A stretch of DNA of 28,454 nucleotides from a virus. The position numbers were made by a program, and so were the translations under genes. The stretch spans positions 1-28,454 of IMG/VR virus record IMGVR_UViG_3300022187_000167. One strand, written 5' to 3'. Of the stretch, positions 3,629 to 28,454 are shown in pieces (position 1 is the first letter of the stretch; each line of letters starts with the position of its first letter). The notes below the pieces were generated by a model, which was not told the DNA's origin, did not search any database, and saw nothing but the letters and a program-made list of their open reading frames with translations.

Positions 3629-4081
3629 ATGGCTAGCAAATCACAACTAAACGAACGCTTAGCACTAATCGGGACAATTGACCCCGACGCATACAGCGCG
3701 GACACGTATACAAGCGACGAAATCAACATGCAAGACTATAGTCGTGTTATGTTTATCTTGACCGTTGGCGACTTGGGATCCAGCGCAACCGTAGACTTTG
3801 AAATTAACGGCGGGGCGACTAGCGACCCCGGATCATTAGCAACCCTCGTAACTGGCAAAGACGCGACCCAACTTACACAAGCGGGGAGCGATTCTAACAA
3901 GCAGGTTATCATTGAAGTATCAGCAGAAGAAGCAGCCGCGCAAGGCTTGCAATACCTCGAAGCTGAAGTAATCGTAGGAACCGCCGCTTGTGATCTTGGG
4001 CTTATCGTATTGGGCGAACCAGCACACTACAGCGACACGGCGGGGCTTGACCTTGCAACTGTTGCCGAAGTGATCGGATAA
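3629..4081 (+). CDS. Conserved structural protein next to capsid (unknown, possible head protein)
   Basis: Encodes 150 residues rich in Asp, Ala, Thr and short beta-strand-like stretches, starting MASKSQLNERLALIGTIDP. It starts 13 bases after the capsid stop with an AAGGA site (3615-3619) nine bases upstream of the ATG. Position between the capsid and connector genes suggests a head protein such as a decoration or stabilising protein. No motif fixes the function. Comparable proteins occur next to the capsid gene in other phages, to my recollection. Confidence 0.7.
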   Translation: MASKSQLNERLALIGTIDPDAYSADTYTSDEINMQDYSRVMFILTVGDLGSSATVDFEINGGATSDPGSLATLVTGKDATQLTQAGSDSNKQVIIEVSAEEAAAQGLQYLEAEVIVGTAACDLGLIVLGEPAHYSDTAGLDLATVAEVIG

Positions 4082-12381: not shown

Positions 12382-12411
12382 TTTACAAGTTATATATCTT
12401 GGGTGTATAAT
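12382..12411 (+). promoter_or_regulatory. Main early promoter
   Basis: TTTACA (12382-12387), an 18-base spacer, then TATAAT (12406-12411). A TTGACC also lies just upstream at 12375. The 5' leader contains GGGGATTAACCCC (about 12429-12441), a small hairpin or dyad, before AAAGGAG and the first early gene. It follows the late terminator directly, so it most likely starts transcription of the early genes. Confidence 0.7.
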
Positions 12412-12457: not shown

Positions 12458-12727
12458 ATGAACGCACAAACACACAAAGCCAACCAAAACCCAACAAGCG
12501 TAGACTTCTTTAATAAAGCTGCAAGCTCCCGAAAAATGGCGCAACAAATGGAAGACAGCTTCTTTAAACAAGTTCATATTGAATTGGCTAAGAACGCACT
12601 TAAAGAAGCGCATAACCTACGCATTGAGTTTTTAAAGGACTTAGTTCTCGATAGCTGGTACGCGGGTAAAATTTCTAACGAAGAATGCGAAGCAGAATTT
12701 GCAGCACTTAACGCCCGTAAATGGTAA
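12458..12727 (+). CDS. First early gene, small helical protein (unknown)
   Basis: Encodes 89 residues, mostly helical and of mixed charge (SSRKMAQQMEDSFFKQVHIE, then KDLVLDSWYAGKISNEECEA). It is first in the early operon, with an excellent AAAGGAG SD and its own promoter. Genes in this slot in other phages often modify the host, but nothing here identifies a target. It is followed by the first tRNA-elbow-like element, four bases after its stop. Confidence 0.65.
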   Translation: MNAQTHKANQNPTSVDFFNKAASSRKMAQQMEDSFFKQVHIELAKNALKEAHNLRIEFLKDLVLDSWYAGKISNEECEAEFAALNARKW

Positions 12728-12731
12728 GAAA

Positions 12732-12773
12732 AGAGCGTACGGTATAACGGCGGGTTCGATCCCCGCCCGCTCT
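12732..12773 (+). ncRNA. tRNA-elbow-like element, copy 1
   Basis: A 42-nt element. AGAGCG (12732-12737) pairs with CGCTCT (12768-12773). Between them is an 11-nt linker (TACGGTATAAC), then stem GGCGGG/CCCGCC with the 7-nt loop TTCGATC, which fits the tRNA T-loop consensus TTCRANY. The two helices are contiguous on the 3' side, giving a 12-bp stack, the same as acceptor plus T-stem in tRNA. The linker begins with UA (as U8, A9) and contains GGUA, like the D-loop. There is no anticodon arm. It sits exactly 29 nt before the next ATG. Confidence 0.75.
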
Positions 12774-12802
12774 ATTTTGTTAAAATTAAAAGGAGAATTA
12801 TC

Positions 12803-13099
12803 ATGAACGAAGCACAAAAGACCCCACTTTACACGGTTACACTAGACGGCGTTAACCCCGACCCCGTAACCGCCGACATGATCGAAGATTGGGCGACCGA
12901 TATCTTTATCGATAACGAATATTGGGAATATGAGCTAGAGTTTGATAACGATCAAGTTACAGTTTATGCGTACCTTATCGGCGACCTCGAAGCCATGTTA
13001 GACGAAGACGAAGAGCTTAGTACAGCTTGGGTTAAAATCCATAACGAACTTTTTTACCTCGTTATTGCCGAACTCATTGAAGACGAAGACGAAGAATAA
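12803..13099 (+). CDS. Extremely acidic small protein, DNA-mimic candidate
   Basis: Encodes 98 residues with 29 Asp/Glu against two Lys and no Arg (hand count), giving a net charge near -27. Aromatic and acidic residues are interleaved (DNEYWEYELEFDND) and the ends are pure acid (EDEDEE). Early expression, small size and such charge are shared by phage DNA-mimic proteins such as Ocr or Ugi-type inhibitors. No sequence match to a named family is claimed. It lies between the two tRNA-elbow-like elements and has a strong AAAAGGAG SD. Confidence 0.65.
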   Translation: MNEAQKTPLYTVTLDGVNPDPVTADMIEDWATDIFIDNEYWEYELEFDNDQVTVYAYLIGDLEAMLDEDEELSTAWVKIHNELFYLVIAELIEDEDEE

Positions 13100-13100
13100 C

Positions 13101-13142
13101 GGCGCGTATGGTATTAAGGCGGGTTCAATTCCCGCCCGCGTC
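13101..13142 (+). ncRNA. tRNA-elbow-like element, copy 2
   Basis: Same 42-nt layout as the copy at 12732. GGCGCG (13101-13106) pairs with CGCGTC (13137-13142, one G-U). The linker is TATGGTATTAA, the T-stem is GGCGGG/CCCGCC and the loop is TTCAATT. Relative to copy 1, stem pair 1 changes A-U to G-C, pair 3 changes A-U to C-G and pair 2 changes G-C to G-U, so pairing is kept. The loop differs only at the R and Y positions of TTCRANY. The next ATG is again exactly 29 nt downstream, and that spacer is 24/29 identical between copies. Confidence 0.75.
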
Positions 13143-13171
13143 TTTTTGTTCAAATTAAAAGGATATCTATC

Positions 13172-13507
13172 ATGCAAGAAAAGAAACGCTTTGTAAATCT
13201 TACACCCCATAACATTAACATTACGCGGGGCGTCGAGGGTAATCTTATTATCCCACCTAGCGGGCTCGTATCGCGGGTTATGAAAAATCTAGTAAAAGAC
13301 GAAGTTAACGGCGTGGAAGTCGTATCATTTAACTATGGGGAAATTAAAGGGCTTCCAACCCCCCAAGCCGGCGTTATCTATATCGTATCGGATATGGTAG
13401 CACAAGCAGCAAAGCGCCCCGACGTTATGGCCCCGTGGGGTTTGCAAAAAGACGAAAAAGGGAGCGTCGTTAGTTGCTTAGGGTTGGTTTGCTATGCGAC
13501 TAATTAA
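13172..13507 (+). CDS. Conserved NLTPH-type phage/bacterial protein (unknown)
   Basis: Encodes 111 residues. The opening VNLTPHNINI, the centre IIPPSGLVSRV and GEIKGLPTPQAGVIYIVS, and RPDVMAPW form a pattern that I recognise from many phage and bacterial hypothetical proteins, normally about 100 residues long. The fold appears beta-rich; function is unknown to me. The SD is AAAGGA. The gene overlaps the next by 14 bases. Confidence 0.72.
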   Translation: MQEKKRFVNLTPHNINITRGVEGNLIIPPSGLVSRVMKNLVKDEVNGVEVVSFNYGEIKGLPTPQAGVIYIVSDMVAQAAKRPDVMAPWGLQKDEKGSVVSCLGLVCYATN

Positions 13508-27141: not shown

Positions 27142-28454
27142 TGGCATACCAAGAAATAAAGTTAACAACCGTAAACGGCGTAAAGTCTATCCCTATTCGC
27201 AACATGCCCCCCGAAGCGTGGACTTCGGTCTTTGGTGATCCAACCGACGGGGACGTTTATAGTCTAGCCCGAAGCGTACCGTGGTTATATCGTGGCATTA
27301 ACGTTATAGCCGAAGCGGTCGTAAACTTACCCCGCAACTGCGAACCACTAGACGACGCCGGCATTATGATAGACTATCCAACGTTATTAAATGAGCTTGT
27401 GGGCGACTACTTGCTAGCGGGCGCCATGTTTGCATGTATGGAAGAAAACCAAGCCCGCAACAAGCGCACCATGAGACGCTTTCACCCCAAGACTATTAAG
27501 CTTATAACCGACCCTCAAAACGGGCTAGTTGGTTTCGAGCGTAATCTAAGAGACAATAGCCCCGCTTTTTATGACATAACAGAAATTGCCTATAGTTGGA
27601 TCCCAAGCCGTACAAGTGAGATAGCAATAGGCGACGCGCCCGCTAAAGCAGCAATACGAGCAAGCGGGTTACTCAATAGCATAGACGAACACGCGGTAAA
27701 ATATTTTGAGGCGGGGGCAATTAACCCAACCATTGCCAAAATAGCCGACTTCCAATCATACCCCGAAGCCGAACAAGAACGCACGAAGTCGATACTCGAT
27801 AGGCTCTTTGGGCGTGGGGTTGATAGCGCCCACCGCGTGGCGCCGGTCGGGACTAATATCGAGTTTGAAACAATCGGTTCCCCAATGTCGGACTTAGCAG
27901 TACCAGAATTAACCAACGCAAAAAGAGAAGATATAAGTACAGCGTTAGGCATTCCCCAAAGCTTGTTGTTTAGTAATGCTACGAACTTCGCAACCGCCCA
28001 ACAAGATAACCGACACTTTTATGAGAAGACGATTATCCCATTAGCGCGTAAAATAGAAACCATGTTTAACCATTACTTTATGCAATATGGAATAGACGAC
28101 GCGCTTACGTTTAACGAACAACAATTAGAAGTATTCCAAACCGACGAAGCCATGCGATCGGGGTCGTTAGTTAATCTTGTAAATGTGGGCATGCCCTTAA
28201 CCGTTGCTATGGAAGTTCTAGGATACGACTTGACAGAAGACCAATGGCAAGCCTTGGGCAAAGCCCCCGACCCTATGGAAGCCGAAGAGGACGTTATCAT
28301 ACAAGAAGCCGAAGACGACCACGCCGAAGACATGGAAGACGAAGACGCCGGGCTTATTGAGCTCGAGGACATGGAAGACGAAGACGGCGCGCTTAAAGAA
28401 ATGAAACCGATCCCCGCCCGCTACAGACACATAGACTTTTACCCTAATGAGACC
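27141..28454 (+). CDS. Portal protein (HK97 type), N-terminal part; gene continues at window start
   Basis: 438 codons to the window edge, then on through 1-688. Portal hallmarks: SVPWLYRGINVIAEAVVNLP, a DYLLAGAMFACME segment, HPKTIKLI and the stem/crown region ALGIPQSLLFSNATNFATAQ followed by FYEKTIIPLARKIET. It forms the dodecameric DNA gate and docks terminase. The C-terminal acidic repeat (EDMEDEDA) and the added domain are described at the left end. The start overlaps the TerL stop (TAATG). Confidence 0.92.
   Translation, partial: MAYQEIKLTTVNGVKSIPIRNMPPEAWTSVFGDPTDGDVYSLARSVPWLYRGINVIAEAVVNLPRNCEPLDDAGIMIDYPTLLNELVGDYLLAGAMFACMEENQARNKRTMRRFHPKTIKLITDPQNGLVGFERNLRDNSPAFYDITEIAYSWIPSRTSEIAIGDAPAKAAIRASGLLNSIDEHAVKYFEAGAINPTIAKIADFQSYPEAEQERTKSILDRLFGRGVDSAHRVAPVGTNIEFETIGSPMSDLAVPELTNAKREDISTALGIPQSLLFSNATNFATAQQDNRHFYEKTIIPLARKIETMFNHYFMQYGIDDALTFNEQQLEVFQTDEAMRSGSLVNLVNVGMPLTVAMEVLGYDLTEDQWQALGKAPDPMEAEEDVIIQEAEDDHAEDMEDEDAGLIELEDMEDEDGALKEMKPIPARYRHIDFYPNET
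28304..28454. repeat. Right copy of the terminal 151-base overlap
   Basis: Same sequence as 1-151 apart from position 28430 (C instead of T). It lies within the portal gene and marks closure of the circle. The one difference is silent and may reflect strain variation or a read error. Confidence 0.93.

Follow-up and report, generated by a model that had tools for sequence, protein, structure and literature searches.

Introduction

In mitochondria, tRNA structures act as punctuation: they lie between genes, and RNase P together with RNase Z frees single mRNAs from the polycistronic transcript. The mascRNA and menRNA are likewise tRNA-like, bound a longer RNA, lack a working anticodon arm and are excised by the same two enzymes. 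In the tRNA-like domain of tmRNA, a 12-bp acceptor plus T-stem is combined with a T-loop and with a D-loop that has no D-stem, and there is no anticodon arm.

Mitochondrial tRNA punctuation is treated in reviews (e.g., PMC4394434). RNase P also cuts phage RNAs, namely the C4 antisense RNA of P1/P7, bacteriophage M3 RNA and the T4 gene 32 mRNA, and AT1 and related minihelix substrates, made of an acceptor stem and a T-arm, are cleaved by E. coli RNase P RNA (PMC11143913).

Here, we describe two 42-nt elements in a 28,454-base virus record (IMGVR_UViG_3300022187_000167, positions 1 to 28,454; hereafter, the window) and their relatives in other phages. Their architecture is of a known kind, that of tRNA-like structures, the tmRNA domain being closest in form and mascRNA closest in presumed handling. 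Each of these systems differs from the phage elements. The mascRNA and menRNA are mammalian, longer, and have D- and reduced anticodon-like regions, whereas the phage elements are 42 nt long, often multi-copy and located between cistrons. The two halves of tmRNA enclose a reading frame and pseudoknots in place of an 11-nt linker, and mitochondrial tRNAs also decode, which the phage elements cannot do. The C4, M3 and T4 gene 32 substrates are single RNAs, not recurrent gene separators. AT1-type substrates share the recognition module of the elements, but they are laboratory constructs with RCCA 3' ends and no D-loop-like linker. In the leader of Lactococcus phage Tuc2009 (AF109874, about 13284-13314), an unannotated and unbulged 12-bp hairpin with the 7-nt loop CUCGAAC stands where the related locus L284 has an element; it lacks the linker, and its loop departs from TTCRANY.

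Neither ARAGORN nor Rfam at gathering thresholds returned anything in the window, including the Rfam family of C4 antisense RNA and tmRNA (RF00023), whose tRNA-like ends around a tag reading frame were not found. The best sensible sub-threshold Rfam match, for copy 2, was mascRNA-menRNA (RF01684; 18.5 bits against a gathering threshold of 42.5), and the likeness to tmRNA was confined to a weak local match in the T-arm (12.5 against 47 bits). The initial annotation of this DNA knew of no described phage element of this kind, and the open-access literature that we searched contains no such description. In that literature we also could not find any account of DNA phages that use such structures repeatedly, often in several copies, to separate genes, and this use appears to be undescribed.

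Results

The window belongs to a tailed phage with recognizable head-morphogenesis protein, major head protein, SSB, helicase-primase and terminase. Its ends (1-130 and 28325-28454) overlap near-identically, with few mismatches and no exact terminal repeat, which suggests that the genome is circular or terminally redundant. Both elements are found by direct reading within a cluster of small genes that precedes the SSB gene, as follows.

12382-12411, + strand: promoter-like site, 11/12 matches, upstream of the small-gene cluster; such sites are no commoner in the region than in shuffles
12458-12727, + strand: upstream small gene, 89 aa, no PHROGs match
12732-12773, + strand: copy 1, whole tRNA-elbow element (reading, shuffles, fold; 52.2 bits with model R1, copy 1 being in the R1 training set)
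12732-12737, + strand: copy 1 acceptor-like stem, 5' strand AGAGCG, paired with 12768-12773 (fold)
12738-12748, + strand: copy 1 D-loop-like linker UACGGUAUAAC (reading; consensus UAYGGUAU across phages)
12749-12767, + strand: copy 1 T-arm, 6 bp plus loop UUCGAUC (fold)
12768-12773, + strand: copy 1 acceptor-like stem, 3' strand CGCUCU (fold)
12774-12802, + strand: 29-nt leader of the next gene, with a U-rich start and the ribosome-binding site AAAAGGAG
12803-13099, + strand: gene between the two elements, 98 aa, no PHROGs match
13101-13142, + strand: copy 2, whole tRNA-elbow element (reading, shuffles, fold; 54.3 bits with model R1, copy 2 being in the R1 training set)
13101-13106, + strand: copy 2 acceptor-like stem, 5' strand GGCGCG, paired with 13137-13142 (fold)
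13107-13117, + strand: copy 2 D-loop-like linker UAUGGUAUUAA (reading, linker comparison)
13118-13136, + strand: copy 2 T-arm, 6 bp plus loop UUCAAUU (fold)
13137-13142, + strand: copy 2 acceptor-like stem, 3' strand CGCGUC (fold)
13143-13171, + strand: 29-nt leader of the next gene, with a UUUUUG start and AAAAGGA
13172-13507, + strand: gene after copy 2, 111 aa, phage family of unknown function (phrog_21731)

The two copies share a 6-11-6-7-6-6 layout, in which 6+6 bp form a coaxial stem with an 11-nt linker and a 7-nt T-loop: AGAGCG / TACGGTATAAC / GGCGGG / TTCGATC / CCCGCC / CGCTCT in copy 1 and GGCGCG / TATGGTATTAA / GGCGGG / TTCAATT / CCCGCC / CGCGTC in copy 2. The initial annotation had given these coordinates, this layout and a TTCRANY loop, and all proved correct to the base on reading and on folding. 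For both copies the minimum free energy and centroid structures coincide, ((((((...........((((((.......)))))))))))), at -17.6 kcal/mol for copy 1 and -18.5 kcal/mol for copy 2. The 12-bp acceptor/T stack and the T-loop are traits of tRNA (RF00005); the anticodon arm is absent, and the 11-nt linker takes its place. Three pairs of the outer stem change between copies (A-U to G-C, G-C to G-U and A-U to C-G), two of them by double compensation, as had also been noted. Two instances of the exact layout with TTCRA are present in the window, compared to none in 300 first-order shuffles of it and none in one shuffle of 3.3 Mb of retrieved DNA.

Copy 1 starts 4 nt past the stop codon that ends at 12727 and copy 2 starts 1 nt past the one that ends at 13099, and exactly 29 nt separate the end of each from an ATG (12803 and 13172). 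Like the family at large, they stand between same-strand genes, after a stop and before a start codon. The copies are paralogues, 32/42 identical in the elements and 24/29 in the leaders that follow, and their equal spacing may therefore be inherited. The fixed distance of 29 nt initially proposed holds for these two paralogues; in other phages the distance is mostly 20-40 nt.

When the whole record was searched with model R1, which describes the 42-nt 6-11-6-7-6-6 fold with a UAYGGUAU-type linker and a TTCRANT loop, these two copies were the only matches. Being in the training set, they match by construction, but elements outside that set (L276, L253, L270 and others) match as well. Both copies are unchanged in a contig with an identical head protein (L005/L233). 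In relatives with 75-84% identity in the head protein, neither these early genes nor the elements are present in the stretches compared, so the elements are not essential to this phage lineage, and covariation within the lineage itself rests on two copies. A BLASTN search of the region and a tblastn search of the window helicase against named phages gave no match.

To collect relatives, viral contigs were scanned with patterns in which part of the linker and the T-arm were fixed and the acceptor stem was free; ARAGORN tRNAs were then discarded, and the remainder passed through a structural scanner that let the junction float and required at least 12 bp. This yielded 82 distinct elements of about 40-50 nt in 56 loci; a few, whose linkers are long or whose surroundings are unusual, are probably partial tRNAs or chance matches. 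Nearly all have a total stack of 12-13 bp, while the linker enters after 5, 6, 7 or 8 pairs (5+7, 6+6, 7+5 and 8+5), as expected if total helix length is the feature that is recognized. The linker is mostly 10-15 nt long, with the consensus U-A-U/C-G-G-U-A-U; its two G residues are almost always kept (30/30 and 29/30 in the 42-nt class), and the T-loop is UUCRANU. Elements found only through a pattern-matching neighbor on the same contig, for example CTTGGAGCATG and AATGGTTCTTG in L302 and CTCGGAGTTTT in L286, keep the YGG, and the core is thus not merely the search pattern. Elements that have 15-21-nt linkers or lie near tRNA genes may differ in function.

The loci are many and often share no proteins; the window has none in common with L185, L282 or L302 (80 aa or more, E 1e-5). 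Genes for TerL, portal protein and primase-helicase confirm several of the records searched with R1 as phages. L245 has two elements, L185 has one 42-nt element with the layout of the window copies plus two further tRNA-like elements between small genes, and some loci also carry real tRNA genes. BLASTN with the elements alone returned mostly real tRNAs. A match in phage RcRudolph was rejected for lying inside a coding gene, as was the phiM12 'tRNA-TERM', a full tRNA according to ARAGORN. No element was found in MW202803, a named relative of L185, or in Pelagibacter phage Skadi-1, which is weakly similar to L286, and L302 had no BLAST match.

Several loci depart from the common form. In L185, the third tRNA-like element (1270-1340, between small genes) has an extra GC hairpin (GATGCGCGCATC) and is nearer to a one-armed tRNA. 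A tight sub-family (L080, L138, L169, L172, L186, L217, L224, L239, L240, L241 and L243) shares the linker CTACGGTACTAAGGT and a 3' flank CTAA; in many of its loci a varying palindrome with a self-complementary center (GCCTCTAGAGGC, GTCTGTACAGAC, GTTCATGAAC) and AAC precede the element. L217 contains, directly upstream of its elbow element, a 142-nt Rfam tRNA match (315-456) that is apparently a tRNA gene with a large insertion. Among Lactococcus P335-group phages (L376:3086-3116, Tuc2009; L375, P335; L284:6772-7692), the leader after an Alt-type gene varies by phage: some have an elbow element, others a truncated copy or a 12-bp minihelix without bulge. In Thermus phage YS40_Isch (L137, about 1469-1535), an acceptor stem, one hairpin arm, a T-arm and a T-run lie in intergenic DNA on one strand, with the flanking genes on the opposite strand.

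An ATG that opens an ORF was found within 60 nt downstream of 51/82 elements in the sense direction, compared to 6/82 in antisense and 502/1640 (31%) random positions. The median distance is 30 nt among elements with an ATG within 200 nt. The upstream stop codon is often 0-10 nt from the start of the element, and in array phages the first base of the element is either the final base of the stop codon or lies a few nucleotides from it (at 3889, 4136, 4440 and 4978 in L282, at 2504 and 3645 in L268, and in 4/5 elements of L286). Among the 22 records searched with R1, 14 carry at least two copies, with a maximum of seven and one strand per record, and arrays of four to seven copies lie between genes on a single strand. 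Structure and placement together strongly support the view, already in the initial annotation, of a tRNA elbow without anticodon arm between cistrons.

Such a position, just past a stop and 20-40 nt ahead of a start codon, might be explained at the level of translation, the tRNA-like fold promoting re-initiation at the next ATG or insulating the cistrons from each other. We consider this unlikely. Shine-Dalgarno-like sequences of the ordinary kind precede the next gene in many cases, so special initiation is not needed, and we know of no bacterial re-initiation element of elbow shape.

The sequence 3' of the helix bears on two further explanations. Counting from the end of the 12-bp helix, position +2 is C in 56/67 elements, +3 is U in 40/67 and +4 is A in 52/67. 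This N-C-U-A flank, common but not universal in the family, is in register with tRNA N73-C74-C75-A76 and echoes NCCA. The window copies lack it and have instead AUUUUG (copy 1) and UUUUUG (copy 2) directly after the stem. A GC-rich hairpin followed at once by a U-tract is the hallmark of intrinsic terminators, both copies score terminator-like, and elements of this sort could reduce downstream transcription as terminators or attenuators between cistrons. For the family this seems quite improbable: only 6/67 elements have TTTT within 10 nt of the stem, and a terminator has no need for an 11-nt bulge with an invariant GG or for a TTCRANT loop. In the window copies, given their U-tracts, termination may be the function, alone or in addition to another. 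A stem of at least 5 bp follows within 40 nt of 25/67 elements, compared to 13% of mononucleotide shuffles, and in a number of loci this hairpin precedes the ribosome-binding site.

Some copies (L150, L281 and L303) have a CCA-like 3' end, and many tRNA enzymes bind their substrates at the T-loop and elbow. The elements could then be genes for free mini-tRNA-like RNAs that act in trans, as decoys for tRNA-binding host or defense proteins, with their position beside genes being incidental. This, too, seems quite improbable, as placement from stop to ATG and same-strand arrays point to a role in cis, and acceptor stems differ between most copies.

The initial annotation had staked its proposal in part on the existence of further homologues with covariation, and these were found in number, with extensive compensatory change. 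In a gapless alignment of 27 sequences and 42 columns (A2), in which the pairing figures are inflated because most rows had been chosen for pairing, 99.4% of cells are paired compared to 57.7% in shuffles, double-change cells number 137 compared to 35, and the covariation score is 1.11 compared to 0.22. Eleven of the 12 pairs vary on both sides, registers slid along the helix pair at 42-54%, and RNAalifold returned the same structure unaided. In a fairer test with a pattern blind to the acceptor, 27/57 non-tRNA matches formed at least 12 uninterrupted pairs, compared to 6.3% with swapped 5' flanks, and several more of the 57 narrowly miss 12 pairs. Compensatory change of this extent shows that selection has acted on the short version itself. 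A rival origin, by decay of tRNA genes or as tRNA-derived integration sites that recombination left behind, might be suspected from a T-arm and 3' acceptor that resemble tRNA 3' ends and from the real tRNA genes at some loci. This covariation largely refutes it, no integrase was found among the window proteins searched, and we rejected this highly improbable reading.

Discussion

We regard it as moderately probable that the elements mimic tRNA in cis and thereby bring RNase P to polycistronic phage mRNA, which it would then cut between genes. In such a scheme, the acceptor-like stem would stack on the T-arm to give a helix of 12-13 bp, and the linker GG would dock into the T-loop as G18-G19 of tRNA do, which we infer from sequence, so that an elbow would be formed without an anticodon arm. 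To host RNase P this would be a pre-tRNA in minimal form, and the enzyme would cleave it along the 5' border, which coincides with the preceding stop codon or follows it closely. Of the two products, the upstream mRNA would end near its own stop codon, and the downstream one would carry its 5' monophosphate inside a stable helix, with the start codon usually 20-40 nt further on, not counting the element itself; expression of the separated genes might be affected in this way. RNase Z may also cut, at the 3' edge, and so free a mini-RNA, though this is less certain.

This RNase P reading is favored because the constant 12-13 bp stack with its T-loop, the conserved linker GG and the NCCA-like 3' flank are what the enzyme reads, and because a site after the stop codon places the predicted cut between cistrons. 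More broadly, a function in processing by RNase P or RNase Z, or in tRNA mimicry, appears to fit the anatomy, most clearly in the 12-13 bp stack and in the N-C-U-A flank seen elsewhere in the family. The U-rich flank of the window copies counts against cleavage by RNase P.

Taken further, many unrelated phages may use decoding-incompetent tRNA elbows, often in arrays, as separators, with the essential host RNase P as operon processing enzyme, in what would be a phage counterpart of mitochondrial tRNA punctuation; to us, the case for and against this generalization is evenly balanced. If it is true, an undescribed and widespread RNA family is added to phage gene expression, and RNase P gains a systematic role in mRNA, so far known from scattered cases. 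The elements would also supply naturally occurring substrates of minimal size, at the 12-bp minihelix limit and in many evolutionary versions, and annotators would have a simple model to locate operon processing sites of phages that tRNA finders miss. Even if RNase P is not the enzyme, a tRNA elbow kept between phage genes by compensatory change needs explaining.

The elements look nearly restricted to phages, and bacterial genomes are almost devoid of them. When about 85,000 genomes were scanned twice for exact patterns, 0 and 67 matches were returned and no element was demonstrated; 59 of the 67 are ARAGORN tRNAs, and none of the other eight (one of them, L349, at a contig end) folded as an element in the scanner. 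With model R1 at E 0.001, matches were obtained in 0/398 genomes of the phylum of a Clostridia MAG (G031), 0/398 of the phylum of Sulfurisoma (G030) and 3/296 of the phylum of Arthrobacter (G032), in searches that may miss weak copies because they used stricter filters and scored few candidates per genome. One of the three Arthrobacter-phylum matches, L379, has a gene layout suggestive of a phage contig.

The other matches are among three very similar minihelices in genomes of this phylum (L380:1500-1542, L382:1501-1541 and L381:101-144), with a GGCGGGTTCGACTCCCGCC core and the linker ATGGTCGCAG or ATGGTCGCAAG. The one in L380 is preceded, at about 15 nt, by an ORF with calcium-binding-like repeats and followed by an ORF that resembles acyl-CoA dehydrogenase, and is apparently chromosomal on account of these flanking ORFs.
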